Shown here piece after piece: positions 1 through 50,024 of a stretch of DNA of 50,024 bases. The stretch's first letter is position 1, and each line of letters opens with the position of its first letter. The notes below the pieces were generated by a model. It did no database searches. It saw only the letters and a program-made list of their open reading frames with translations, and was not told the DNA's origin. The position numbers and the translations under genes were made by a program. The DNA comes from Flavobacteriales bacterium (GTDB lineage Bacteria; Bacteroidota; Bacteroidia; Flavobacteriales; UBA7312). The DNA lies in the NCBI GenBank assembly GCA_016779995.1, contig JADHMO010000012.1, positions 1-50,024 of the forward strand, given 5' to 3'.

Positions 1-1172
1 CTTTCGGAATAGCAAATATTAACAACAGTAAATTCGGAGTAAGCCGAATTGGTGATACAGTAATAAACCTATCAAAGTTGTATGAACTAGGGGCATTTCA
101 TGGTATCCTTTCTGAAAACTATTTTGACAAAGATTTTTTAAACGACTTTCTTAAAAAGAAAAAATCAGATTGGCGTTCTGTTAGGAATAGAATATCTGAA
201 ATTTTTACTGATGAGAATAATAAAGATAAATTTACTTCTGCCTTATTTGACTTACAAGATGTAGAAATGTGTATGCCAGTAAAAGTTGGAGATTACACAG
301 ACTTTTATTCTTCTCGCCAACATGCTTATAATGTGGGTTGTATGTTTAGAGATCCTGACAATGCCTTGTTGCCAAATTGGCTACATATACCTGTAGGCTA
401 TCATGGTCGTGCATCGTCCATAATACTATCTGGCACAGATATTTACAGACCTAAAGGTCAACAATTACCTTTAGATGCAAAAGCACCTGTTTTCGGACCT
501 TGTAAATTACTAGATTTTGAATTAGAAATGGCATTCATTACTGGTGAAGGAAAACCGTTGGGTGATTCTATTTCAATAGATGAAGCTGAAGATTATATTT
601 TCGGAATGGTTATTTTCAACGATTGGTCTGCAAGAGATATTCAGAAATGGGAATACGTGCCATTAGGACCATTTTTAGCTAAAAACTTCGCTTCCTCTAT
701 TTCGCCTTGGATTGTTACATTAGATGCATTAGAACCTTTCAGATGTCAAGGTGAAGAACAGAAGCCTGAAGTTCTACCTTATTTAAAGTTTACAGGAAAT
801 AAAAACATTGATATCAATTTAGAAGTTCAGATTGAATCCGATAACTTCTCTGCACATACTGTCTCAAAATCCAACTACAAATACATGTACTGGAATATGA
901 ATCAGCAATTAGCCCATCATACCGTAAATGGCTGTGACATCCACGCTGGTGATATGATGGCTTCAGGAACTATTTCTGGAAATGATGAAAGTGCCTATGG
1001 CTCAATGTTAGAGCTTTCTTGGAAAGGTACAAAACCATTATCAATGCCTGATGGCAGCGAACGTAAATTTATCAACGATGGTGACACCGTTATAATGAAA
1101 GCATATAGCACTAAAGACAATGTTAGAATTGGATTTGGTGAAGTTAGAACAAAAGTACTCCCCTCTAAATAA
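1..1172 (+). CDS. fahA: Fumarylacetoacetase, 5' end cut by window edge
   Basis: This enzyme hydrolyses fumarylacetoacetate to fumarate and acetoacetate, the last step of tyrosine/homogentisate breakdown in the cytosol. The frame is open from base 3 with no start codon, so the true start lies outside the window; the TTG at 78 is an internal codon. Family hallmarks are visible in order: VGYHGRASS (catalytic His region), LDFELEMAF (metal-binding Glu pair) and FNDWSARDIQKWEYVPLGP, followed by the usual C-terminal GDTVIMKAY core. The gene ends only 8 bases before the RSH gene, so the two may be co-transcribed. No other tyrosine catabolism gene is visible here. The family assignment is secure; only the N-terminus is missing. 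Confidence 0.95.
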   Translation, partial: FGIANINNSKFGVSRIGDTVINLSKLYELGAFHGILSENYFDKDFLNDFLKKKKSDWRSVRNRISEIFTDENNKDKFTSALFDLQDVEMCMPVKVGDYTDFYSSRQHAYNVGCMFRDPDNALLPNWLHIPVGYHGRASSIILSGTDIYRPKGQQLPLDAKAPVFGPCKLLDFELEMAFITGEGKPLGDSISIDEAEDYIFGMVIFNDWSARDIQKWEYVPLGPFLAKNFASSISPWIVTLDALEPFRCQGEEQKPEVLPYLKFTGNKNIDINLEVQIESDNFSAHTVSKSNYKYMYWNMNQQLAHHTVNGCDIHAGDMMASGTISGNDESAYGSMLELSWKGTKPLSMPDGSERKFINDGDTVIMKAYSTKDNVRIGFGEVRTKVLPSK

Positions 1173-1180
1173 CCTTCACT

Positions 1181-3388
1181 TTGCAGTCTATAAATCTTGA
1201 CATAGAAAGAAAAGAAATTCTCAATAGATACAGAGGATTACTTAGAGATTGTAGTGATAAAACCGATAAGGAAGATAAAAAACGTATTCGTAAAGCTTTT
1301 AACATTGCTGTTGAGGCTCATAAAGATATGCGTCGTAAATCTGGTGAGCCCTACATTTATCATCCAATTGATGTTGCGAGGATAGCTGCTAAAGACATTG
1401 GTTTAGGTACAACTTCTATAATTTGTGCTTTATTACACGATGTTGTTGAAGATACCGATTATACCTTAGAAGATATTGAACGTATTTTTGACTCTAAGGC
1501 AGCAAGAATTATAGACGGATTAACTAAAATTTCTGATGTATACGATCAAAACGTATCTATGCAAGCTGAAAATTTTAGAAAGATGCTTCTCACCCTTTCT
1601 GACGATGTTCGAGTTATTCTTATAAAGCTAGCTGACAGATTGCATAATATGCGTACTCTAGCCTCTATGCCTAAACATAAACAGTTAAAGATTGCCTCTG
1701 AAACATTGTACCTCTACGCCCCTCTTGCTCATAGGTTAGGGCTTTATGCTATTAAAACAGAGCTAGAAGATTTAGGATTAAAATATACCAAATCTGAAAT
1801 TTATAAGGCTATTTCAGAGAAATTAGCTGAAAGTAAACGATCAAGAGTTCGTTACATCAATAAATTTACAATCCCGCTAAAAGAAGAATTAAATAAACAA
1901 GAATTTAATTACACCATTAAAGGGCGACCTAAATCCATTTTTTCTATTCGAAATAAAATGTTGAAACAAGGTGTAGAATTTGAAGAAGTATTTGACAAAT
2001 TTGCTATTCGGATTATCATTCAAGCTAATCCAGAAGATGAAAAGGCTTTTTGCTGGAGAGCTTACTCTATTGTCACTGATTTTTACAAGCCTAATCCAGA
2101 TAGATTAAGAGATTGGATTTCAACCCCAAAAGCCAATGGGTATGAAGCTCTGCACACTACTGTTATGGGACCTAATGGAAAATGGGTAGAAGTACAAATT
2201 CGAACTGAAAGAATGGACGATATCGCTGAAAAAGGCTTTGCTGCCCATTGGAAGTACAAAGACTCATCTTCGAAAGAATCAAATCTTGATAATTGGATTA
2301 ATAGAATAAGAGAGTTATTAGAAAATCCAGATTCCAATGCCATAGATTTTGTGGATAATTTTAAAATGAATCTTTTCTCTGAAGAAATATTCATTTTTAC
2401 TCCAAATGGCGACTTAAAAACATTACCTAAAGATGCTACTCCTCTTGACTTTGCATATGAAATACATACAGAAGTTGGTAGCCATTGTTTAGGTGCTAAA
2501 GTCAATGGTAAACTAGTACCATTTTCTCACATACTAAAAAGTGGAGACCAAGTAGAGATTATAACATCTAATAAACAATCACCAAAGGAAGATTGGCTAA
2601 GTTTCGTTAAAACTTCTAGAGCAAAGTCAAAAATCAAAAACGCTCTGAAAGAAGAAAAAAAGAAAATAGGGCAAGAAGGAAAAGAATTATTATTAAGGAA
2701 ATTAAGGCATATAAAAATTAACTTCAATCATAATACCGAAAATGAAATGTTGAAGTTTTTTAACCTTAAAAACAGCCTTGACATGTACTATCTTTTTGGT
2801 GTTGGTAAGCTTAATAATAAGCATATCCGTTCTTATGTGAACACCAAAAATCAAGGTTGGTATGGTTTGCTAAAAAGTAAAATTTCTAAGAAGGAACAAA
2901 AGAATATTGGCAACAGTGAAACAGTAAAACGTGCCAATAGTCAACCTGCTATACTTTTTGGTAATGATAAACAAATACTAGATTACAAACTTGCTAAATG
3001 CTGTTCTTCCATCGGTGGTGATGAGATATTTGGCTTTACAACTATCAATGAGGGAATAAAGGTTCATAATGTCAATTGTCCTAACGCTATTCAGCTACAA
3101 TCTAGATATGCTTATAGAATTTTAAAAGCCAAATGGGCTACTATTGAAAATCTAGAATACTCAGCCATTTTACGTATAAACGGCTTTGACCAAATTGGTT
3201 TAGTCAATAAAATCACTAAACTCATTTCTAACGAAATGAATGTGAATATTTCGTCCATTAATATCAAATCAAACAACGGTATTTTTGATGGTAGAATTTC
3301 TGTAATCGTAATTAATAAAGTCCACCTCGAAAATCTTATTAACAAATTAGAGAGTATTGAAGGTGTTGAGTCGGTAGAACGTCTTTAA
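1181..3388 (+). CDS. RelA/SpoT (RSH) (p)ppGpp synthetase/hydrolase
   Basis: This cytosolic stringent-response enzyme of 735 residues makes and probably degrades (p)ppGpp. The N-terminal HD hydrolase domain carries HD at 86-87 and ED at 90-91 ([11 protein letters not shown]), with [12 protein letters not shown] further on. The synthetase domain includes GRPKSIFSI and [20 protein letters not shown] (near 320). A TGS domain starts near 398 ([19 protein letters not shown]) and an ACT domain occupies about 660-735. An intact HD motif suggests a bifunctional Rel type rather than a synthetase-only RelA. The start is TTG at 1181: the frame is closed by a stop at 1166-1168 and the next ATG (residue 50) would delete part of the HD domain. 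It is followed by fur and purA, a common order in Flavobacteriia. Confidence 0.95.
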
Positions 3389-3456
3389 AAAGTGTTGAAA
3401 AATTAGTCCTCTTTCTTTTCAAAAAAAAGTTATTTTTACCCTTTACATTATTACAA

Positions 3457-3909
3457 ATGTCTAGGATAGAATCGACTTCATCTGTATTAGAAATCTTTAC
3501 TCAATATCTTGAGAAAAATGGTCAGCGTAAAACTCCTGAACGCTTTGCAATTTTGCAGGAAATATACGACCACAATGGTCATTTTGATATTGAGACCTTG
3601 TACATAAAAATGAAGAACAAAAAATATAGAGTAAGTAGAGCTACTTTATATAATACTATTGAGCTTTTAATTGATAGTAAATTAGTTAGAAGACATCAGT
3701 TTGGTAAAAACCAATCTCAATATGAAAAATCCTTAATTAGTGGTCAGCACGACCATTTGATTTGTTCATCGTGTAAATCCGTAATTGAGTTTTGTGACCC
3801 AAGAATACAAAATATTAAAAATACTGTAGAAGAACTGCTAAAGTTTAAAGTCTCAAATCATTCCTTAAACCTCTATGGTTTATGTGAAAAGTGTCAATCA
3901 AAAAAATAA
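3457..3909 (+). CDS. Fur-family transcriptional regulator
   Basis: This 150-residue metal-responsive repressor has a winged-helix DNA-binding domain (about 15-85; [12 protein letters not shown] and [14 protein letters not shown]) and a C-terminal dimerisation/metal domain. [15 protein letters not shown] provides the His-rich sensor segment and the first Cxx[10 protein letters not shown] at the end provides the second CxxC, together the structural zinc site of the family. The sequence does not decide whether it senses iron (Fur), zinc (Zur) or peroxide (PerR). It lies 68 bases after the RSH gene and 10 bases before purA, so it probably shares a transcript with purA. It is a full-length member. 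Confidence 0.93.
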
Positions 3910-3919
3910 ATATATATAG

Positions 3920-5185
3920 ATGTCGGTAGATGTATTACTAGGCCTACAATGGGGCGATGAAGGAAAAGGTAAAATTGTTGATGTACTTACTCAAGACTAT
4001 GACATTATTGCTCGTTTTCAAGGAGGTCCTAACGCAGGTCATACCCTTGAATTTGATGGAATAAAACATGTGTTACATACTATACCCTCTGGTATATTCC
4101 ATAAAAACGCCATCAACATCGTTGGTAATGGAGTGGTTATAGACCCCATTATCTTCAAAAAGGAAATAGATGCCCTTAATAAGATGGAAGTCGATTTAAC
4201 TAAAAAATTATTGCTTTCAAAAAAAGCCCATCTTATTCTACCTACTCATAAAATATTAGATGCTGCTTCTGAAAAAGCCAAAGGTAAAAGCAAAATAGGC
4301 TCTACTTTAAAAGGAATAGGACCTACTTATATGGACAAAACAGGCAGAAATGGTCTTAGAGTAGGCGATATCAATTCATTAGAGTTTAAGAATCGTTATG
4401 ATAAACTTGTAGCTAAACATAAACGCATGTTGGATAATGATTTTATGGATTTTGAGCTAGATAGTTTAGAAAAAGAATGGTTTGAAGGCATAGAAGTATT
4501 AAAGTCGTTTACCCACATTGATAGTGAACACTATTTGCATCAAGCACAAAAAGAAGGTAAAAAGATACTAGCTGAAGGCGCACAAGGTACTTTATTAGAT
4601 ATTGATTTTGGTTCCTATCCTTTTGTAACTTCTTCTAATACCATTTCTGCTGGTGCTTGTACAGGATTAGGAATAGCACCAAATAAAATTGGTGATGTTT
4701 ATGGAATTTTCAAAGCCTATTGTACAAGAGTTGGTAGTGGCCCCTTCCCTACCGAATTGTTTGATGAAGTAGGCGAATTTATCGGAAAAGTCGGTAATGA
4801 ATTTGGTGCAACTACTGGTAGAAAAAGACGTTGTGGCTGGATAGATATACCCGCTCTTAAATACGCTATTGCTATTAATGGCGTTACTAAGTTAATGATG
4901 ATGAAAGCAGACGTGCTTAGTAACTTGGAAAACATTCAAGTTTGTACACACTACAAATACAATGGTGAATTAATTGACTATTTACCCTTTGATGCTAGTG
5001 AAGATACTATTGAGCCTGTTTATAAAGAATTAGCCGCTTGGAAAGAAGATTTAACTCAATTGTCTTCTCTTGATGATGCTCCATCTCAATTGATAGACTA
5101 TATCGATTTTCTTGAAAAAGAACTAGAAACACCTATTGTAGTGGTTTCGGTTGGCCCTGATAGAACCCAAACTCTTAACAGATAA
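3920..5185 (+). CDS. purA: Adenylosuccinate synthetase
   Basis: This enzyme condenses IMP and aspartate with GTP to adenylosuccinate, the first committed step of AMP synthesis in the cytosol. Its 421 residues match the usual family length. The signature GLQWGDEGKGK lies at 8-18, followed by FQGGPNAGHT, STLKGIGPTYMDK, the GTP/IMP region EGAQGTLLDIDFGSYPFVTS, and TTGRKRRCGWID near the C-terminal third. The ATG at 3920 is 10 bases after fur. The downstream OstA-like gene begins a few bases after the purA stop, suggesting one operon. There is no sign of damage. Confidence 0.97.
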   Translation: MSVDVLLGLQWGDEGKGKIVDVLTQDYDIIARFQGGPNAGHTLEFDGIKHVLHTIPSGIFHKNAINIVGNGVVIDPIIFKKEIDALNKMEVDLTKKLLLSKKAHLILPTHKILDAASEKAKGKSKIGSTLKGIGPTYMDKTGRNGLRVGDINSLEFKNRYDKLVAKHKRMLDNDFMDFELDSLEKEWFEGIEVLKSFTHIDSEHYLHQAQKEGKKILAEGAQGTLLDIDFGSYPFVTSSNTISAGACTGLGIAPNKIGDVYGIFKAYCTRVGSGPFPTELFDEVGEFIGKVGNEFGATTGRKRRCGWIDIPALKYAIAINGVTKLMMMKADVLSNLENIQVCTHYKYNGELIDYLPFDASEDTIEPVYKELAAWKEDLTQLSSLDDAPSQLIDYIDFLEKELETPIVVVSVGPDRTQTLNR

Positions 5186-40056: not shown

Positions 40057-41094
40057 TTAGTCTAAAGTGATGTTTTTTTCAACTGAACCGTTTTTATAAA
40101 TCAGAAATTGTAGCTGATTAGATGTAGGTTGTATAGTCTTTCCCTCAAGGTTTCTTATCTCCTTAAGTTGGTTGGGCTTGGCCTCTTTGTCATCAATATT
40201 TGAGGTGTATGGCCATAGTCGTATGCCTACTGGCAAATGGTCAGAGATGCAGTTGTCGTAACCATAAAAACCATTACTAAAGTATTGCGCCATATTCATG
40301 GTTGTCACATAGTTGTATGCGTTATTAAACTCATCAAAAAGCTCATTAGTAATGATTATGTGGTCTAGGTGTGAAGGCCAAGAAGGAAAAGACCATTGTG
40401 AAGTAGGAAAATCCAAAATTGGTGTATCAGTAAACAGATAATTCTCGCTATCGTCTATAAAGGATTGAAAGACGTTGTTACTGATGTTATCTTCTATCAA
40501 ATCGTTATAATCTCCTACTATGAGAACATTTTTATCTGAGAGGTTGTTGTCTATATAATATTTTATGGCATTACTGGCTGCTCGTCTTCTAGTTTCTTCA
40601 TCGCCTGAGTCCGATTCGTCTAATGTACCATCACCACAACATTTGAGGTGTATGTTTATGATATAAAAGGTCATACCACTAAAACTAAGCTCTATTAAAT
40701 AGGGTGGTCTGCCTGCAAAATTATTGGAGTATTGGTTGGAATTTAAGATAGAATAATGAGAAATGACTTCTACATCTTTGTGTACTAAATAGGCTAGAAT
40801 TAAATTATTGTAATTATTGGGTATAATGTAGCCTGTATAATCTTCTAAGCTATTAGCTAGTTCCTGAAAAGCTTCTTCGTCATTTATCTCTTGTAAAGCA
40901 TAAACATCAGCTTGCATAGCAGCCATAGCTACCGAAGTCGAATCAATAGTAGTTTGCTTGTTTTTTGGGAAAAATTCTAGATTCCACGTGACTACTTCAA
41001 AAGAACCTTCAGCACCAAAAACGAGGTCAGATAAACTTTGAGAAAATGTAAACGTTGAAACAAAAAGAAATAGAAGTATTAAGGTTTTACGCAT
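40057..41094 (-). CDS. Secreted endonuclease/exonuclease/phosphatase-fold protein
   Basis: This 345-residue protein has a signal peptide (TLILLFLFVSTFTFSQ). The EEP (DNase I/APE1-like) domain (about 30-290) shows VVTWNLEFFP, ALQEIND with the metal-binding Glu, INIHLKCCGDG, VGDYNDLIED, SHLDHIIITNELFDE and ISDHLPVGIRL, so catalytic residues are in place. The last 45 residues (LKEIRNLEGKTIQ ... IYKNGSVEKNITL) resemble the end of a T9SS tail. It is paralogous to the N-terminal third of the divergent 996-residue protein 81 bases away. Substrate (extracellular DNA or a phosphodiester) unknown. Confidence 0.88.
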   Translation of the reverse strand: MRKTLILLFLFVSTFTFSQSLSDLVFGAEGSFEVVTWNLEFFPKNKQTTIDSTSVAMAAMQADVYALQEINDEEAFQELANSLEDYTGYIIPNNYNNLILAYLVHKDVEVISHYSILNSNQYSNNFAGRPPYLIELSFSGMTFYIINIHLKCCGDGTLDESDSGDEETRRRAASNAIKYYIDNNLSDKNVLIVGDYNDLIEDNISNNVFQSFIDDSENYLFTDTPILDFPTSQWSFPSWPSHLDHIIITNELFDEFNNAYNYVTTMNMAQYFSNGFYGYDNCISDHLPVGIRLWPYTSNIDDKEAKPNQLKEIRNLEGKTIQPTSNQLQFLIYKNGSVEKNITLD

Positions 41095-41175: not shown

Positions 41176-44166
41176 ATGGTTCATTTCAATAGAAGTCTAT
41201 TCATAGTTGTACTCCTTTTATTTTACATAACTAACTATGCTCAATCATTGAGTAACTTAGGCTTTGGTAATGACAATACTTTCGATGTCATTACTTGGAA
41301 TTTGGAAAGCTTTCCTAAAGTAGATGGTACGACTGAGAATTATGTTTCTGACATTATCGTTGAACTAGAATCAGAAATCATCGGTTTTCAAGAAATAAAC
41401 AATATATCGGCTTTCAATACTATGATGGAATCTACATCGGGCTATACCGGCTATGTGCTAGATGCTAACTATGGAGGTATAAATATGGCTTTTGCAGTCA
41501 AAAATGATGTTAGCGTTATTGATGAGTATGCCATACTATCTTCTAGCACTTATAGTTATGCTTTCGCTGGAAGACCTCCTTATTTGATACATGTAGAAAA
41601 AAACAACATTGAGTATTATATCATTAATGTACACCTTAAATGCTGTGGTGACGGCAACCTGAACACCTCAGATTCATCAGATGAGGAAAACAGAAGGTTA
41701 GTTGCCCTAAACCATATTAAATCCTATATAGACAATAATTTATCTAGTGAAAATGTATTGGTTATTGGTGATTACAACGATGAATTGGACGATAATACTG
41801 ACGATAATGTTTTTCAAAATTTCATTGACGATAGCGATAATTACCTGTTTGCTGATATGAGCATTGCAACAGGAAATCCTCAGAATTTTTCTTTTCCAAA
41901 CTGGCCAAGTCATATTGACCACATTCTCATTACCAATGAGCTTTTTGATGAGTTTAACTCTGGCGAAAGTGATGTTACTACCATACCAGTAGATAATTAT
42001 ATTAGTGGTGGTTTTAGTTCCTACGATGCATTTATTACCGACCACATGCCTGTGGGTATAAGTTTGGTTTATACTAACGGTTGTACCGACCCTTTAGCAC
42101 TCAATTATAATCCTGATGCAATTACCGATGATGGTTCTTGCGCCTACGATACTGGCAATGATAATATGGTGCTGTTTTTCTCTGAATATGCCGAAGGTTC
42201 TTCCAATAACAAATACCTCGAAATCTACAATCCTACATCATCGGCAGTTAGTCTAGAAAATTACGCTATGGCACTAGTGGTAAATGCTCCTACTCAAGTA
42301 GGAGTGTATGATTCTTGGCACTATTTTGATACTGGCTCATCTGTTCCTGCCAATGGCGTTTTCATTGTAGCTCACCCCTATTCTGATGCTGCTATTTTAG
42401 CTGTTGCTGATATGACCACCACACACCTCAGTAATGGAGATGATGGTATAGCTTTAGTATATGGAAATCAGCCCTCAACTAACACAAGCCCATCAGCTGG
42501 TGGATATACCGTAGTAGATAGAATTGGCGATTGGAACGGTGACCCAGGAAATGGCTGGTCAGTAGCTGGAGTTTCTAATGCTACAAAAGACCACACTCTA
42601 GTTAGAAAGTGTTCTGTTAGTCAAGGAAACGAAGATTGGACAGCATCTTCTGGAAGTACTGCCGAAAATTCTGAATGGCAAGTATTACCAAATAACGATT
42701 GGTCTGATTTAGGACAACATTACTTTCCTTGTGACATTATCATTCAAGGTTGTACAGACCCTAATTCCATTAATTATAATGACCAAGCAACAGTCGATGA
42801 CGGCTCTTGTATTTGTTGTTATTTAGGTTGTACTGATGAAATTGCTACCAATTACAATCCTAATGCTTATTTTAATGATGGTAGCTGTGAATACATTAGT
42901 GGCTGTACGAATCCTTTAGCATCTAATTATAATCCTGATGCAACTTTAGATGATAGTAGTTGCATTATCGAAGATAGCCCTTGTGACTATGTGCCTAGTG
43001 GATTATATGTTGACAATATCATTCACAACAGAGTGCAATTCAATTGGAGTCAACCTCAAGAGCTCCCCTCCTATTATATGATTCGTTACAGACCCACTGG
43101 CAGTAGCTCTTGGACGGTTATGACTGCAGGAACACAAAATACAAATCCATATAGTGGGACTTCTAGGACTCGCTACTTCTTACAAGCCAATACAAATTAC
43201 GACTGGTCTATTAGAGCTAGAGTAATAGATGATGAAGGTAATGTAATATGCCAATCGGCGTGGTCACAGATAGCCAATTTCATTACACTCCCTAACTGTC
43301 CTAACCTTGAAAACTTAGCTGTGGTTACGGAAGCCAATTGGGTGACACTCACAGCAGATTCTCCAAATGGTGATTTTGATATATGGCAATCTAAAGGCAA
43401 AATTCGAAAAGTAGGAACATCAGAATATAGGTATGTTAATGGTAGTAATAGTATCAACGTGCTAAAAGGTAATTTTGAGGCTAATACCAATTACGAATGG
43501 CATACCAAAGCGTGGTGTACTGGCAATGTTGATGAATTTGGAAATTCTGACTTAATGTATCACTCATCTTGGGGAGAGTATAGTTCTTTCACTACTGAAG
43601 ATATTTGTGACAAAACACCTTATAATTTGTCAACTACATCCAATGCAGCAAATACGACTATTACAATGTTATGGGACACCCCTACTAACGGCTATCCAGA
43701 CCATTATTTTTTAGAGCTTAACAATCTTACAACAGGACAAACATGGGCATGGAATGATGTATCAGCTTACTCAAATTCAAAAACCAAATTCGGTCTAACA
43801 ACAGGTAATTATTCATGGAGAATTAGAGGAGCATGTGGTAGTAATGGTACGTCTTGGGCTACACCATTTACAGCTTTAGAATTTTATACACTTGGATCTA
43901 ATCGAATTGCGAATCAAGATTATGTATTCCATGTTTATCCCAATCCATCTCAAAAGGTCTTTAATGTAAACCTTAGCCTAACATCAATTGAAGATGTAGA
44001 AATTAAAATTACTAATAATATCGGTCAAATTGTTTTTCAAGACGTACAAACACAAACAAATTCTTACAAACATAGAATTGATTTGAGCAATTTACCTAAG
44101 GCTATTTATATAATTTCAGCAAAAACAGTTTCACTTTCTATTCATAAAACCATATTTCTACACTAG
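41176..44166 (+). CDS. Multidomain secreted EEP nuclease/phosphatase with lamin-tail, FnIII and T9SS domains
   Basis: This is a 996-residue exported protein. In order: signal peptide (1-22); EEP domain about 33-296 (VITWNLESFP, GFQEINN, INVHLKCCGDG, IGDYNDELDD, SHIDHILITNELFDE, ITDHMPVGISL); a GCTDPLALNYNPDA-type Cys repeat near 302; a lamin-tail domain about 330-515 (FFSEYAEGSSNNKYLEIYNP); three more Cys repeats about 525-595; three fibronectin-III-like domains about 602-905; and a type A T9SS tail about 918-996 (YVFHVYPNPSQKVFNV). Extracellular nuclease or phosphodiesterase activity is likely because the metal and His residues are intact. A terminator overlaps its stop. Confidence 0.9.
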   Translation: MVHFNRSLFIVVLLLFYITNYAQSLSNLGFGNDNTFDVITWNLESFPKVDGTTENYVSDIIVELESEIIGFQEINNISAFNTMMESTSGYTGYVLDANYGGINMAFAVKNDVSVIDEYAILSSSTYSYAFAGRPPYLIHVEKNNIEYYIINVHLKCCGDGNLNTSDSSDEENRRLVALNHIKSYIDNNLSSENVLVIGDYNDELDDNTDDNVFQNFIDDSDNYLFADMSIATGNPQNFSFPNWPSHIDHILITNELFDEFNSGESDVTTIPVDNYISGGFSSYDAFITDHMPVGISLVYTNGCTDPLALNYNPDAITDDGSCAYDTGNDNMVLFFSEYAEGSSNNKYLEIYNPTSSAVSLENYAMALVVNAPTQVGVYDSWHYFDTGSSVPANGVFIVAHPYSDAAILAVADMTTTHLSNGDDGIALVYGNQPSTNTSPSAGGYTVVDRIGDWNGDPGNGWSVAGVSNATKDHTLVRKCSVSQGNEDWTASSGSTAENSEWQVLPNNDWSDLGQHYFPCDIIIQGCTDPNSINYNDQATVDDGSCICCYLGCTDEIATNYNPNAYFNDGSCEYISGCTNPLASNYNPDATLDDSSCIIEDSPCDYVPSGLYVDNIIHNRVQFNWSQPQELPSYYMIRYRPTGSSSWTVMTAGTQNTNPYSGTSRTRYFLQANTNYDWSIRARVIDDEGNVICQSAWSQIANFITLPNCPNLENLAVVTEANWVTLTADSPNGDFDIWQSKGKIRKVGTSEYRYVNGSNSINVLKGNFEANTNYEWHTKAWCTGNVDEFGNSDLMYHSSWGEYSSFTTEDICDKTPYNLSTTSNAANTTITMLWDTPTNGYPDHYFLELNNLTTGQTWAWNDVSAYSNSKTKFGLTTGNYSWRIRGACGSNGTSWATPFTALEFYTLGSNRIANQDYVFHVYPNPSQKVFNVNLSLTSIEDVEIKITNNIGQIVFQDVQTQTNSYKHRIDLSNLPKAIYIISAKTVSLSIHKTIFLH

Positions 44167-44773: not shown

Positions 44774-45538
44774 ATGTACAAAGTTAAGCATACATACTTT
44801 TTCGATGAATTAAAAAATAATACCGAGGATAAAGTAAAATTTAAAGTCAATAGCTTAGGTAATTGTAACCTTCTTTCTGAAATTATTCTCGAAACCATTG
44901 ACGAATACGTTAACTACAACACTATTCGTCGAATTTATGGCTTGGCACCTTATGTAAATACTCGAACTAAAACTCTTGATATTTTAGCTCGTTTTAATGG
45001 TTATAAAAGTTACTCACACTATATACAAACTTATTCTTACAAAAATAGACTTACAATTTCTGATCGAATATACAAAGTCATCAATAAACCTGAACAAAAA
45101 GAGCTTAATCAACTAGTAAAAGATATTCGAAAAAGTTCTGAAGATAATATAAGCTTATTGTCTCTACTTATCAGAGAACTTATTTACAATAAACAATTCA
45201 AGGCCTTGAATAATATATTTTATCTGAAAGAATTACAATATGAGACCTTTTCATATCATGAAATTTTAAGCTTAGGAAATTCTATTGGAATTATTTTTAG
45301 AAAAAAAAATGTAGTAAATCAAGAGTTGTTGCAAAATAACAATTTCCTAAGGATTGTCTTCTTAATATTTGTTGATTATAGTAGTATAAATAGCTACTAT
45401 GGAGAGTGGGCCAAGTACATCAATGAAACTTCAAGAGACAAAGAGATTAAGCTTTTTACTTCAGCTATTTTAGAATTCAAAAAACATCTAAATAATGAAA
45501 AAGTTGAAGATAATTTTGAAAAGATGGCTTTTAGCTAA
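44774..45538 (+). CDS. Putative regulator N-terminal part, interrupted by in-frame TAA
   Basis: This 254-residue product has an N-terminal segment (about 25-95; NLLSEIILETIDEYVNYNTI, RRIYGLAPYVNTRTKTLDIL, ARFNGYKSYSHYIQ) that resembles an atypical helix-turn-helix-like module seen in Bacteroidetes proteins with helical-repeat C-termini. The rest is helical and Lys/Asn/Ile-rich. The frame stops at TAA 45536-45538, but the same frame stays open beyond it to 46060, giving a combined 428 sense codons. This probably represents one gene broken by a nonsense mutation. It may still make a truncated protein. Translation is likely coupled to the membrane protein upstream. Confidence 0.65.
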   Translation: MYKVKHTYFFDELKNNTEDKVKFKVNSLGNCNLLSEIILETIDEYVNYNTIRRIYGLAPYVNTRTKTLDILARFNGYKSYSHYIQTYSYKNRLTISDRIYKVINKPEQKELNQLVKDIRKSSEDNISLLSLLIRELIYNKQFKALNNIFYLKELQYETFSYHEILSLGNSIGIIFRKKNVVNQELLQNNNFLRIVFLIFVDYSSINSYYGEWAKYINETSRDKEIKLFTSAILEFKKHLNNEKVEDNFEKMAFS

Positions 45539-45583
45539 AATTTACACCCTGTTTTGTGTAGTCGTCTATTGTCCGTGAAAATT

Positions 45584-46060
45584 ATGGCTAAAAATTATGA
45601 TAATATTAACGACTTATTACATAATTACTCTGAAAAACATAATATTTTAGAAAAGAAAAATATTGATTATTTTCTAGAAATCTCTGTTATCGCTATCATC
45701 GATAAGAACATTACAATAATGAAATATGTCATAGATTATTTCAAAAATGAAAATCAAATATTCAATAGTGACTACATGTTATTTTATCTGAATATTTATT
45801 TTTTAATGTGCTCTTTTTATTACAAGTTCACCAAAGAGAAAAATCTTGAAAAACAATATTTCAAATTATTTAATTTTGACGAAATTAGATACAGTTACGA
45901 AGATATTGTTAGTGTATTTTTACTAATATATAATCATTCTAACGAAACGAAAATCGCTAATAGAAAAAGGATTAGAGATGAATTCATCAGCTTACATAAA
46001 ACTTTAAACTATAAGAAGTTTTCTATTGATTATTTTGATAATTACTTTACAACAAAATAG
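45584..46060 (+). pseudogene. C-terminal part of the interrupted regulator
   Basis: These 158 codons from ATG 45584 are in the same frame as 44774-45538. The intervening in-frame codons read NLHPVLCSRLLSVKI and look like coding sequence of a helical-repeat protein rather than spacer. The segment itself is alpha-helical (YFLEISVIAIIDKNITIMKY, MLFYLNIYFLMCSFYYKF), with no signal peptide and no recognised domain. It could be expressed separately from ATG 45584 or TTG 45554, or be a dead 3' fragment. I favour a fragment of one ancestral gene spanning 44774-46060. Confidence 0.55.
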
Positions 46061-46117
46061 TTAAGGAATTGAGCATCTGGTCTTTCTTAAATATAAAAGC
46101 TGAAAATTTGGTCTGTT

Positions 46118-46222
46118 AATAAACTTAATTGCCTACCTAAGCTTTTTTTAGCAAAACTGTTAATTATTTACTTCATTCAAACTAAATTATTAGATTTGAA
46201 GCAACTTAACTATTCAATTATG
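46118..46222 (+). repeat. Leader repeat, copy 1
   Basis: This leader is shared with 47024-47146. The most conserved stretch, 46172-46230 against 47096-47154, differs at only about 4 of 59 positions and includes the -7 box, the start codon and the first codons of the signal peptide. The upstream part is related but more diverged (ATAAACTTA ... CCTAAGCT). Confidence 0.8.
46191..46198 (+). promoter_or_regulatory. -7 promoter box in leader copy 1
   Basis: TAGATTTG fits TAnnTTTG and ends 21 bases before ATG 46220. The identical box recurs at 47115-47122 in leader copy 2, at the same distance from its start codon. Confidence 0.65.
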
Positions 46223-46651
46223 AAAGCATTTTTTTATCTACTTATCCTTTTAACTATCTCAACTTTTTACTCTTGTGGTGATGAAGAAGAAGTTACTATG
46301 AATGAAAATTTAGTTTATACAATTTTTGATATTACAAATGGAAATGGTAGGTCCTTTAATGTAATGACTCAAGCTGGAAGTGAATCTTTTACAGCCAACT
46401 CCAATAGTTTTTCATTTACTACTAATACATTTTCTGCCACAGCATTAAGTGGAACTACATTTTATTACATGATGCAATTATACTTTGACTATGCAAATAA
46501 TGATGGATGTGTAGATGTAAATGCAAAAACATATCTTAACGGGAGCCTATATGAAAATAGAAGTTATTCAATAGGGTATGCTAATTTTCCAACAGACCTT
46601 TGTCCTAATAACACTACTATTGGTGAAATGTATGGTATTATTGCAGATTAG
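46220..46651 (+). CDS. Lipoprotein of unknown function
   Basis: This 143-residue exported lipoprotein has the signal FFYLLILLTISTFYSC and the +1 lipid-modified Cys followed by Gly-Asp-Glu-Glu. The mature part is rich in Ser/Thr/Asn/Tyr with alternating beta strands (SFTANSNSFSFTTNTFSATA) and two further Cys residues (DGCVDV, DLCPNN) that may form a disulfide. No known domain was recognised. ATG 46220 is set by the -7 box and by the matching start of the gene at 47144. Its leader and downstream tail/terminator are nearly the same as those of that gene, but the mature protein is unrelated. Confidence 0.75.
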   Translation: MKAFFYLLILLTISTFYSCGDEEEVTMNENLVYTIFDITNGNGRSFNVMTQAGSESFTANSNSFSFTTNTFSATALSGTTFYYMMQLYFDYANNDGCVDVNAKTYLNGSLYENRSYSIGYANFPTDLCPNNTTIGEMYGIIAD

Positions 46652-46704
46652 ATTACATCTCAGTCTAATCCAACTATTCTAAAGAAATTTTAAACTTGCA
46701 GTTA

Positions 46705-46754
46705 AAACTGATACTTCAGTAAATTCTAAACCCTCACTTTTTAGTGAGGGTTTT
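46705..46754 (+). repeat. Tail/terminator repeat, copy 1
   Basis: These 50 bases match 49364-49413 with two mismatches. In the second copy the first 18 bases encode the last residues of a T9SS tail (KLILQ and stop). Here the same codons (KLILQ stop) lie about 50 bases beyond the lipoprotein stop, so they look like a leftover gene end. Confidence 0.8.
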
Positions 46755-46757
46755 AAT
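46728..46757. terminator. Bidirectional intrinsic terminator
   Basis: AAACCCTCACT (46728-46738), a TTTT loop and AGTGAGGGTTT (46743-46753) form a perfect 11-bp stem followed by a T-rich run. A-rich bases lead in on the other side, so it can end both the lipoprotein gene and the convergent Cys-rich lipoprotein gene. Confidence 0.8.
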
Positions 46758-46763
46758 TTAAAT

Positions 46764-46967
46764 CTATTTACATTCACAACCAAAGGCCTCGATAACTGCA
46801 ACAGTTTGGTCATATTCATCTTTACTATCAAAGTCACTTTCACATACTTCTGATTGGTCTAAAGTAACTTCTGAAGGGCAATCTGCACATTCTACACATT
46901 TTTTACCACAAGACATAAATGTAAAAGATGAAATAAAAAGAATTGATAAAATTAATTTGAAATTCAT
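46764..46967 (-). CDS. Small Cys-rich lipoprotein
   Basis: This 67-residue protein has a signal peptide with a lipobox (SILFISSFTFMSC; Cys20). The short mature part carries six more Cys (24, 27, 30, 42, 64, 66), with KKCVECADCPSE near its start and GCECK at the end. Acidic residues dominate between them. The Cys pattern suggests disulfides or metal binding outside the inner membrane. It lies between two plus-strand secreted genes, with its own -7 box at 46993-47000. No family was recognised, but the intact signal, promoter and terminator argue that it is a real gene. Confidence 0.75.
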   Translation of the reverse strand: MNFKLILSILFISSFTFMSCGKKCVECADCPSEVTLDQSEVCESDFDSKDEYDQTVAVIEAFGCECK

Positions 46968-46992
46968 AATGGTTAAGTTTAATAATTAGATT

Positions 46993-47000
46993 CAAATATA
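46993..47000 (-). promoter_or_regulatory. -7 promoter box for the Cys-rich lipoprotein
   Basis: The minus strand reads TATATTTG (TAnnTTTG), 25 bases before ATG 46967. Confidence 0.55.
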
Positions 47001-47023
47001 TTAAATTTCTAATTCTATCCTAT

Positions 47024-47146
47024 CACTTACCAATAAACTTAGTGACTTATTAGTTAGCTCCTAAGCTCTTTACATAAGTACTTATATTGTACTATTTCAT
47101 TCAAACTAAATTATTAGATTTGAGGGCACTTAACTATTCAATTATG
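47024..47146 (+). repeat. Leader repeat, copy 2
   Basis: This is the second copy of the leader described at 46118-46222; the best-conserved part is 47096-47154. A third, degraded relative occurs near 49437-49540 (CCAATAAATTTAGTGA and TTTCATTCAACAAAATTAT), where the -7 box is lost. Confidence 0.75.
47115..47122 (+). promoter_or_regulatory. -7 promoter box in leader copy 2
   Basis: TAGATTTG ends 21 bases before ATG 47144, exactly as in copy 1. Confidence 0.65.
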
Positions 47147-49381
47147 AAAACATTATTTACTCTACTTATTTTATTGATTCCATTTATTGGAATTTCACAA
47201 ACTGTTTATGTTACTAACACTAATGACTCTGGTCCAGGCTCTCTTAGAGATGCAGTTATTAACGCATCTGATGGAACTACTATTAGATTTGATGAGAGTA
47301 TTAATAATCAAACAATTACTTTATCAAGCAGTTTAACTTCTAATGCCAACATTAGAATTGTTGGTAATGCTGATGACCAAACATCATCATTGATTAAATT
47401 TGATAACTCCTTTTTTTCTTACGGTGAGTTAATAATTGATAGTATTGACATTCATCCTAATTCATTACAAGATTTTGTTTTTTTCCACATATACAATGAC
47501 TTTCAATTTATAAATTCATATGCCTATAATATTGAATCAAGTGCTAAAATCTTTTCAATTCAGTCTGAAAATAGCGATATAAATATTAACATTCAAAATA
47601 GTAATTTTATAAATATTCCTGGTAAATTATTTTATTTACATTCTCCCAATATAAATTTTGATTTAAGTTTTTGCTATGGAAATAACATAAATACATTTAT
47701 AGATGATTTTATATTAAATGGGTCCTCTGATATATCAATTTCATATTCAGAATTTAATAATTCAAAGATTATCACCAATACAGCAATCGAAAAATTAGAA
47801 ATTTTTAACTCAACATTTAATAATTTTGATATTTCAAATTCAAATGGCCTCAATATGTCTTATTATTATCTAGGTGAAAACATAAATTTAAATATAGATT
47901 CATCATCTTTTTACAATTCTAATTTAAATTTTAACCCTAGCTTAGGTTATGAAATTTTTACTGATTTACAAATAGCTAATTCTAACTTTAATAATTGTTT
48001 TTTAGAATTTCGTGGTCAGGGAAATCTTGAAAATGTCGATATAAACAATTTTGAATCTTTAGCGTTAGAATTAATAAGCATTAATAATTCAACAATATCA
48101 TCAAATGGATCACAAAACAATTTTATGACATTTTCTTTGGATAGTTATGATGCTAATTACAGCCTAGATTTTAATAAAAATATTTTTGATTGTGATATTC
48201 TATTAAATGGAAATGAACTAGTTGATAATTACACTTTTATTGAAAGTTCACTCAATGGGAATTTATCAACAAATGACATAGATAACTTAAGTTTAGTTTC
48301 TTGTATTTTAAAAGATAATGATAATTTAAGTTTAGTAATTGATAACGAACAATGTCAAAATTGTAACACTTTTATAAAATCGTCATTTTTTAGTAATAAC
48401 CAAGGTGGTTTTTATTCATTTAATTATATGATTTATCAATTTGGAGGTAATTTAGAAATTGAAAATTCTACATTTTACAATAATGATAATGTAATTTATT
48501 TTGGTTCTGGAACTGATATCAGCGTTAAATCTTCAACATTTTATCAAAATGAAATTGGTTTAAATCTTATTCAATGGCAGCCTGAGGAGACAGGCTCTGT
48601 AACTTTTTATAATAGTATAGTTGGTCATATTAACTTTACATTTGGAAGTTCTATAATTGCTTCTGGTTATAATATTTTTAGTAATTCATTAAACAATTTA
48701 CCTGAAACTAATTTTGATGGTATTTCTGATTTAAATCTTTCATTGATTGATGATAATTCATCAATAACACCTTACCTTTTAGCAGATTATTGTAGTATAG
48801 CACACGACAATGGCGACCCTAATTTTGAGGGTTCAATTGTTAATACAGAAGTTCCTGTTAACATAAAAGATATTGGATCAGCAGAAAGAACAGATATTTG
48901 TGATGAAAATGAATCCACTTGGTCTTGTAATAATGAATTTGCTTGTGTTGAATTATCTGACGGAAGTGGAAATTTTCAATCTCTAGAAGAATGCGAATCT
49001 AACTGTTCAGTTATAATTGAAGATAGTTGGAATTGTGTTAACGATGCTTGTGTAGACCCATTAGATGGAAGTGGTGAATTTTCTACTTTAAACGATTGTG
49101 AACAAGTATGTCAAAATATATCTTCAATTAATGAAAATTTAATTGATGTAAATATATTCCCTAACCCCTCATCTAACATTTTTAATCTTGAATTTAACTC
49201 AGATTCTGAAACTGAAATTTTAGTGACAAATATCTTAGGAGAGCAAGTTTATTTTGAATCTATAAATACTTTAGGGGAGCTTTATACTCAAATAGATTTA
49301 TCTAATGAGCAAAAAGGTGTTTACAACCTCACTATTAAAACCTCTGATAGAATAAGTAATCATAAACTGATTCTTCAGTAA
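47144..49381 (+). CDS. Large secreted beta-helix-like protein with T9SS tail
   Basis: This is a 745-residue surface protein. The start at 47144 gives the signal peptide KTLFTLLILLIPFIGISQ. The N-terminal segment TVYVTNTNDSGPGSLRDAV is the usual beginning of CSLREA/choice-of-anchor-Q type proteins. The long middle (about 50-580) has many short Asn/Ser/Phe/Ile turns (NSNFINIPG, NSTFNNFDIS, NSTFYNNDNV, KSSTFYQNE), consistent with a right-handed parallel beta-helix. Two Cys modules follow (WSCNNEFACVELSDGSG and WNCVNDACVDPLDGSG). A type A T9SS tail (VNIFPNPSSNIFNLEF to KLILQ) ends it. Ligand or enzyme activity unknown; no catalytic motif was seen. Confidence 0.88.
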   Translation: MKTLFTLLILLIPFIGISQTVYVTNTNDSGPGSLRDAVINASDGTTIRFDESINNQTITLSSSLTSNANIRIVGNADDQTSSLIKFDNSFFSYGELIIDSIDIHPNSLQDFVFFHIYNDFQFINSYAYNIESSAKIFSIQSENSDININIQNSNFINIPGKLFYLHSPNINFDLSFCYGNNINTFIDDFILNGSSDISISYSEFNNSKIITNTAIEKLEIFNSTFNNFDISNSNGLNMSYYYLGENINLNIDSSSFYNSNLNFNPSLGYEIFTDLQIANSNFNNCFLEFRGQGNLENVDINNFESLALELISINNSTISSNGSQNNFMTFSLDSYDANYSLDFNKNIFDCDILLNGNELVDNYTFIESSLNGNLSTNDIDNLSLVSCILKDNDNLSLVIDNEQCQNCNTFIKSSFFSNNQGGFYSFNYMIYQFGGNLEIENSTFYNNDNVIYFGSGTDISVKSSTFYQNEIGLNLIQWQPEETGSVTFYNSIVGHINFTFGSSIIASGYNIFSNSLNNLPETNFDGISDLNLSLIDDNSSITPYLLADYCSIAHDNGDPNFEGSIVNTEVPVNIKDIGSAERTDICDENESTWSCNNEFACVELSDGSGNFQSLEECESNCSVIIEDSWNCVNDACVDPLDGSGEFSTLNDCEQVCQNISSINENLIDVNIFPNPSSNIFNLEFNSDSETEILVTNILGEQVYFESINTLGELYTQIDLSNEQKGVYNLTIKTSDRISNHKLILQ

Positions 49382-49413
49382 ATTCTAAACCCTCACTTTT
49401 TAGTGGGGGTTTT
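49364..49413 (+). repeat. Tail/terminator repeat, copy 2
   Basis: This pairs with 46705-46754 (two mismatches in 50 bases). It covers the last five codons and stop of the beta-helix-like gene plus the terminator. Confidence 0.8.
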
Positions 49414-49415
49414 TT
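49387..49415 (+). terminator. Intrinsic terminator
   Basis: AAACCCTCACT (49387-49397), a TTTT loop and AGTGGGGGTTT (49402-49412) form an 11-bp stem with one G-T wobble, followed by a T-run. It is the same hairpin as at 46728-46753. Confidence 0.8.
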
Positions 49416-49570
49416 ATTACACCCCACTCTACTTATCACTACCAATAAATTTAGTGAAATAGAAGAATCCCCTTGTAACACATACTTAATTGTTGCCATA
49501 GTTAATTAGTTTTTTTTCATTCAACAAAATTATGTGGTTTTAGTCAACGCTTAGTCAACCAAACACCAAT

Positions 49571-49679: not shown

Positions 49680-49705
49680 TAAAAAAAGGGAGCGCAAACT
49701 CCCTC
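49680..49705 (-). terminator. Intrinsic terminator, minus strand
   Basis: GGGAG (49688-49692), a six-base loop and CTCCC (49699-49703) form the stem. On the minus strand it is followed by a run of T. It lies directly downstream of the tRNA 3'-end fragment and was probably the terminator of the original tRNA gene. Confidence 0.7.
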
Positions 49706-49708
49706 TAG

Positions 49709-49724
49709 CGGTCTGGACGGAACT
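49709..49724 (-). other. tRNA 3'-end fragment, likely attachment-site core
   Basis: The minus strand reads AGTTCCGTCCAGACCG, matching the T-stem 3' side, acceptor strand CCAGACC and discriminator G that I recall for Bacteroidetes tRNA-Asp. The rest of a tRNA (T-loop, anticodon arm, D-arm, 5' acceptor GGTCTGG) is absent upstream on that strand. A lone tRNA 3' end beside a tyrosine recombinase gene is the usual footprint of an integrated element. The tRNA identity is an inference. Confidence 0.6.
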
Positions 49725-49733
49725 CCCAAATAG

Positions 49734-49874: not shown

Positions 49875-50024
49875 GTGAAAGTCAATTTTTACATAGGGAC
49901 TAGAGATAATATACTTTTAAGCATAAGCTATAACGGTAAACGATTGCAAACAACAATTGGTTTACAATGCTCCAAAAAGAATTGGAACTCTAATAAGCAA
50001 AGAGTGAAAAGCTCAGTTTCTAAT
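49875..50024 (+). CDS. Tyrosine recombinase (integrase), 3' end cut by window edge
   Basis: Fifty codons are visible from GTG 49875, beginning VKVNFYIGTRDNILLSISYN and continuing GKRLQTTIGLQCSKKNW and KQRVK. This is the pattern of the N-terminal arm DNA-binding domain of Bacteroidetes tyrosine recombinases, where short beta strands end in a K.WN..KQRVK segment. GTG is the start because a TGA at 49869-49871 closes the frame upstream. The catalytic domain lies outside the window. It probably moves an integrative element inserted at the adjacent tRNA end. A palindrome-like GTTAAACA pair lies 15 bases upstream and may regulate it. Confidence 0.75.
   Translation, partial: MKVNFYIGTRDNILLSISYNGKRLQTTIGLQCSKKNWNSNKQRVKSSVSN

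Follow-up and report, generated by a model that had tools for sequence, protein, structure and literature searches.

Two unrelated exported-protein genes of a Flavobacteriales bacterium share a leader that was probably copied beside decayed integrative-element remnants

Introduction

New exported proteins in bacteria are usually explained by whole-gene transfer or domain shuffling. Several described systems resemble the locus reported here. Phage satellites and small elements that target tRNA genes (PICI; PICMI, PMC10803314; tycheposons, PMC10872708) have in common with its relatives a tyrosine integrase, an HTH_17 protein resembling excisionases, a Rep gene and variable cargo, and some of the related loci also lie at tRNA genes. 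Integron gene cassettes resemble the gene arrays described below: unrelated genes are arrayed with a repeated sequence between them. Polymorphic secreted proteins with a constant N-terminus (e.g. TANFOR, PMC7073777) and T9SS cargo proteins, which have C-terminal sorting domains in common, likewise join a constant export part to a variable body. In Bacteroidota, initiation proceeds without Shine–Dalgarno sequences, unstructured, A-rich leaders are favoured, and the refined −7 box consensus is TAHHTTTG (PMC6847099).

The window is the whole stretch of DNA that was analysed, 50,024 nucleotides of a Flavobacteriales contig. A preliminary description had noted two secreted-protein genes with a common head and tail and unrelated bodies, and had proposed either tandem duplication followed by body replacement or a cassette-like site.

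Two genes with shared ends

The features of the two genes are as follows.

46172–46219, plus strand: leader a, with an AT-rich stretch, the −7-like box TAGATTTG (46191–46198) and the 5'UTR
46220–46651, plus strand: gene 1, a 143-aa putative lipoprotein with a syntenic ortholog in sister species G002 (85% aa identity)
46652–46671, no strand assigned: short stretch like the end of the Rep relic behind the G002 lipoprotein (weak, by alignment)
46705–46754, plus strand: tail 1, the last six codons of a T9SS gene (KLILQ and stop) with an intrinsic terminator, noncoding
46764–46967, minus strand: 67-aa putative lipoprotein between genes 1 and 2, with no Pfam or NCBIfam match
47096–47143, plus strand: leader b, with a −7-like box (47115–47122) and the 5'UTR
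47144–49381, plus strand: gene 2, 745 aa, with a Por_Secre_tail (T9SS type A sorting domain; PF18962, TIGR04183)
49364–49413, plus strand: tail 2, the last six codons of gene 2 with a terminator
49517–49540, plus strand: possible degraded leader c (weak, by alignment)

The shared leader first described is borne out and is longer than had been reported. Between 46172–46230 and 47096–47154, 55 of 59 bases match (four mismatches). The initial 28 bases are identical, with zero chance matches in dinucleotide shuffles, and similarity reaches 110 bases at 80% identity (46136–46245 against 47060–47169). The two leaders align with a score of 53, against 19.5 for the best control. Box TAGATTTG carries a G that is not part of the refined consensus (TAHHTTTG; PMC6847099). 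The 5'UTR part is similar to a motif widespread in the order, with many 30-base matches, and no Rfam family matches close to the gathering score. The search of the organism's own 1.96-Mb genome that had been suggested found no third head and no third tail elsewhere; this genome was covered by searches and by chosen stretches of sequence. The proposed third, degraded leader behind gene 2 stands in part: 49416–49457 is a genuine further copy of the repeat found ahead of the leaders, and the promoter part at 49517–49540 is weakly similar. Outside the genus, the top match of leader b in the 395 genomes searched (G169:C50, E 6.9e-6 per genome) covers the box and 5'UTR and lies directly behind a Rep relic. 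The leader is also found upstream of a third secreted protein, near tRNA-Leu, in G003:C8.

The bodies are unrelated, as had been claimed; blastp of one against the other gave nothing better than E 0.6. Gene 1 starts with the ATG at 46220. Gene 2 belongs to the T9SS cargo, its type A sorting domain exceeding the curated cut-offs of both PF18962 (E 2.8e-11, 44 bits, cut-off 27) and TIGR04183 (32.6 bits, cut-off 23). Heads and tails are direct repeats, and no long, high-identity inverted repeats were found around gene 1 or gene 2; an invertible (phase-variable) locus was rejected on these grounds.

The common 50-base tail was also recovered, with 48 bases matching and two differing. Both copies fold as strong terminators, far better than shuffles (z −6.7 and −5.4). 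In gene 2 the initial 18 bases of the tail are coding (AAA CTG ATT CTT CAG TAA, giving KLILQ and stop). Behind gene 1 the same bases are noncoding and lie about 54 bases past the stop at 46651, and tail 1 is therefore a relic, or stump, of a T9SS gene. Sister genome G004 has a T9SS gene with an unrelated body and a near-identical coding tail (GATACTTCAATAAATTCTAAA). One base of tail 1 is common to G004 and G005 and absent from tail 2; tail 1 cannot therefore be just a recent duplicate of tail 2.

Comparison with a sister species

The reference locus is contig 37 (CAJWHN010000037) of G002, an uncultured Flavobacteriales bin. Its sequence follows the window colinearly, at 90% DNA identity, as far as 46198, and colinearity resumes at the lipoprotein ATG and extends over the lipoprotein gene. 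The gene order in G002 is leader, DUF6435, lipoprotein, Rep relic, NhaA. Its lipoprotein lies behind a small DUF6435 gene, has a different signal-peptide start and is followed by no such tail; gene 2 and the tail are absent from this syntenic locus. Since the lipoprotein occupies the syntenic place in G002 and gene 2 is absent, the lipoprotein is the resident. Searches of four sister species did not recover gene 2, and its body was not found in any of the family's other genomes, the remaining matches covering the C-terminal part only. Gene 2 is probably the newcomer; the alternative is loss in the sisters.

Leader a is composite. Its upstream part aligns with the G002 leader, and from 46172 on it matches the leader of gene 2; over the first 28 bases it agrees with leader b at 28 positions and with the orthologous G002 leader at 22. 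The signal-peptide bases CTACTTAT of gene 1 also agree with gene 2 and disagree with G002. On the most economical reading of these sequences, the head of gene 2 would have been copied onto the resident lipoprotein and the DUF6435 gene lost, a direction read from one comparison, with the lipoprotein known from one sister species.

Close relatives do not always carry the same two bodies, G002 having the lipoprotein only, and to that extent the original interpretation survives. Its second reading, that new bodies are inserted behind a fixed promoter and signal peptide, probably does not apply to gene 1: there the body is resident, and the altered parts are the head and the tail.

Further upstream, 44774–46060 corresponds to a single 429-aa frame in G002 that is split in the window by an in-frame stop. 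At 40057–41094 (minus strand) and 41176–44166 (plus strand) lie divergent genes for related endonuclease/phosphatase-like secreted proteins.

Rep relics beside an integrase and a tRNA fragment

The sequence ahead of the leaders and beyond gene 2 includes the following.

46061–46171, no strand assigned: repeat copy a, upstream part, a decayed Rep-relic counterpart colinear with G002 copy d (by alignments)
47014–47078, minus strand: repeat copy b, relic of an HUH Rep gene 3' end (88% to G002 copy e, E 3.8e-16)
49416–49457, minus strand: repeat copy c, Rep relic behind gene 2 (88% over 43 to G002 copy e, E 2.8e-8)
49685–49725, minus strand: tRNA-Asp 3' end (49708–49725, 17/18 bases) with terminator, an attachment-site remnant
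49875–50024, plus strand: start (GTG) of a tyrosine integrase gene that runs off the contig (PF17293 Arm-DNA-bind_5)

The repeat ahead of the leaders was found only in G000, G002 and G003. Its minus strand is the 3' end of a Rep gene, a point that had been overlooked. The best copy, in G002, encodes HYPYEKTLGANYYVTKFTGSDKIEWGVI on this strand, the C-terminus of a 131-aa protein detected, complete or partial, in 17 of the 395 genomes searched across the order. The protein belongs to PF23343 (HUH replication protein; REP_ORF2-G2P) at 30.6 bits (cut-off 27.8). Intact Reps have HxH and YxxK motifs, with H73, H75, Y112 and K115 invariant or nearly so. The G002 peptide aligns with them through the catalytic-tyrosine motif, and copy e matches the intact-Rep profile at E 4.9e-9. 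The repeat is thus classed as an HUH REP_ORF2-G2P relic, the intact relatives exceeding the Pfam cut-off and the relic aligning with them. Window copy b by itself gives E 0.77 against the profile, which is not significant, and the window relics are recognised only via DNA similarity to G002. Rep is not intact in G000. Folding of the repeat relative to shuffles (z −1.0 and −2.2) revealed no recombination-site structure. Rep, leader and repeat had no match in IMG/VR, INPHARED or PLSDB at the sensitivity used, and a viral or plasmid origin by database match was rejected.

The integrase start scores 24.6 bits against PF17293 (cut-off 22.6), with just 50 aa on the contig. Together with the tRNA 3'-end fragment it identifies a tRNA-targeting integrative element beside the locus. 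Intact Rep genes elsewhere are accompanied by a tyrosine integrase and/or HTH_17, by cargo genes and often by a DUF5681 protein, and several adjoin tRNA-Asp or tRNA-Ser. In G008, of the same family, the Rep gene and cargo are divergent, as in the window. The right flank of G003, used as an empty-site marker, had no counterpart in the remaining genomes. Given the Rep relics, the Arm-DNA-bind_5 integrase, the tRNA-Asp 3' end and the G169 match, the locus is best read as decayed element cargo.

The genomes are apparently draft assemblies, in which these repeats coincide with the ends of many contigs. At the ends of L118, L119 and G003:C7 and the start of G003:C8, contigs break off inside a Rep gene, Rep relic or leader or next to one, a pattern expected if such sequences vary in the population or exist in several copies.

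Arrays of copied heads in related bacteria

In family f11 of the same order, DNA-level head matches reach 35 per genome, with at least ten in many genomes. The head found there, head B, consists of the 5'UTR GACTTTAAAACAATAGATTAACAATAAACTAAG followed by ATGAAAAAACTACTACTTATATTACTTTGC (MKKLLLILLC).

L156 (G169:C41), 800–4700, and also L107, L158, L157 and L166: arrays of short exported-protein genes with a copied head and a three-frame-stop spacer

Across 38 cassettes the first 48 bases are on average 81% identical and the bodies 31%, the latter falling into 23 families. Forty-seven proteins were picked solely by protein sequence, as starting MKKLLL; their Leu codons 4–6 are CTA, CTA and CTT in 42–43 cases, against a background in these loci of 13% for CTA and 17% for CTT. 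The conservation of rare synonymous Leu codons in the arrays indicates that the heads are copied DNA. Spacer TTAAAACAATAGATTAA has a stop codon in all three frames, and 27 preceding reading frames, across all three, terminate at or inside it; the spacer of a copied head ends whichever frame precedes. One array has nine head matches in about 5 kb. Folding of head B yields 0 kcal/mol, and the spacer does not fold. Head B and the window head (head A) are weakly alike, with a score of 14.5 that 7% of control leaders equal. Some array heads adjoin intact Rep genes, and heads are also scattered along chromosomes with no Rep detected (e.g. G019); the link between head and Rep is an association only, in loci selected for carrying a head or a Rep.

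Another type of head, ATGCCCTTCACTAAAGGAAATAATACA, is the start of the DUF5681 gene and is found in G009, a member of the window's own family. At L114 (G009:C17) it precedes five different bodies (7714, 8106, 9381, 11425 and 13644). A partial literature search found no description of such copied-head arrays.

Three further cases were observed. In one L114 gene the body apparently still has a start codon and signal peptide of its own downstream of the added ATGCCCTTCACTAAAGGAAATAATACA head. The protein at L163 8399 begins MKKMKKLLLILI, one head start directly behind another. The endonuclease/phosphatase-like body family of the window also occurs in G150 (L159 2083–3090; 45% identity, E 2e-87), where it has a copied MKKLLLILLC head.

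With up to 35 copied heads per genome in related families, head copying onto cargo is probably a general process, and the window locus is probably one small, old case of it. The earlier idea of one head shared by many bodies thus finds strong support in a different family of the order. At the window a swapping site is only conjectural, as is a dedicated head-copying mechanism.

Origin of the locus

We consider it reasonably probable that the locus is a decayed integrative-element cargo region beside a tRNA-Asp hotspot, shaped by head copying and by deletion of a T9SS gene copy. Head copying is the best explanation of the shared leader, with gene conversion as the probable means. RecA-type gene conversion, or unequal crossing-over, could have acted between leader copies. 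Such recombination would have replaced the head of the lipoprotein gene by the one belonging to the T9SS gene and eliminated DUF6435. Tail 1 would be the remnant of another copy of the T9SS gene, lost by a deletion running from the body to the last six codons. Head copying would supply an unrelated protein with a ready promoter, 5'UTR and signal-peptide start.

A broader proposal, which we regard as tentative and rather doubtful, is a head-transplant system of marine Bacteroidota whose arrays often lie near HUH-Rep/tyrosine-integrase elements, the window genes being a degenerate example. The transplanted module would comprise the three-frame-stop spacer, unstructured 5'UTR, start codon and signal peptide, copied again and again before unrelated frames. 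If so, captured sequences would become exported proteins in a single step.

Plain tandem duplication of the T9SS gene is unlikely. Here the first copy would have lost most of its body and the lipoprotein would have come to lie between its ends by a chance of deletion. The 80% repeat continues 36 bases upstream of the leader, as a duplication might leave it, and tail 1 is a T9SS end; duplication with decay does fit the tail and may still apply there. It leaves unexplained a lipoprotein leader that is colinear with G002 upstream and identical to leader b downstream, as well as the hybrid signal peptide, and the head is better explained by copying.

We think it quite improbable that the locus is a cassette site, at which secreted bodies are inserted behind a fixed promoter and signal peptide and ahead of a fixed tail. 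The head and tail do flank two unrelated bodies, the leader precedes the third secreted protein of G003:C8 and one-head, many-body arrays exist in another family of the order. Yet the gene 1 body is the old resident, present at the corresponding place in G002, and the new parts of gene 1 are head and tail; neither the repeat nor head B showed recombination-site structure, and the genome has no third head/tail pair.

Selection alone for unstructured, A-rich 5'UTRs and Sec signal starts is favoured by the Bacteroidota mode of initiation (PMC6847099) and by short leader pieces across the order, yet is most improbable given 28/28 identical bases, 80% over 110 and a score of 53 against at best 19.5 in controls, the failure to find leaders this alike ahead of unrelated genes that were never neighbours in the genome, and the rare Leu codons conserved in arrays.

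Comparison with known systems

PICI-like phage satellites carry int, an alpA-like regulator, rep and terS and depend on a phage for packaging; int, HTH_17, Rep and DUF5681 were seen in the relatives, for which such an identity is at most possible. Unlike in PICI, PICMI and tycheposons, the Rep here is an HUH protein of family PF23343. The 94-aa DUF5681 protein is at best a possible terminase small subunit, and no capsid or packaging evidence was found in the related loci. Charybdis elements (PMC12324425) were rejected as a match, having archaeal hosts and different genes.

Integrons have an IntI integrase and, as the repeated sequence, a folded 3' attC after every cassette; here the repeated unit is a head at the 5' end that brings a start codon and a signal peptide, the spacer is unfolded and the integrase close by belongs to the Arm-DNA-bind type, which targets tRNA genes. 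An integron or attC assignment was accordingly dismissed, the integrase start matching PF17293 and the folding of repeat and head lying within z −2.2 of shuffles.

If confirmed, head copying would offer a simple route for surface-protein diversification in streamlined ocean bacteria, and the head could serve as a sequence tag listing recently recruited exported proteins. Unlike in TANFOR proteins and T9SS cargo, the constant part is the promoter, the 5'UTR and only the first 10–18 codons, with DNA-level copies on lipoproteins, T9SS cargo and membrane proteins alike. The transferable unit here seems to be a control-and-export head, copied as DNA onto resident or captured genes.
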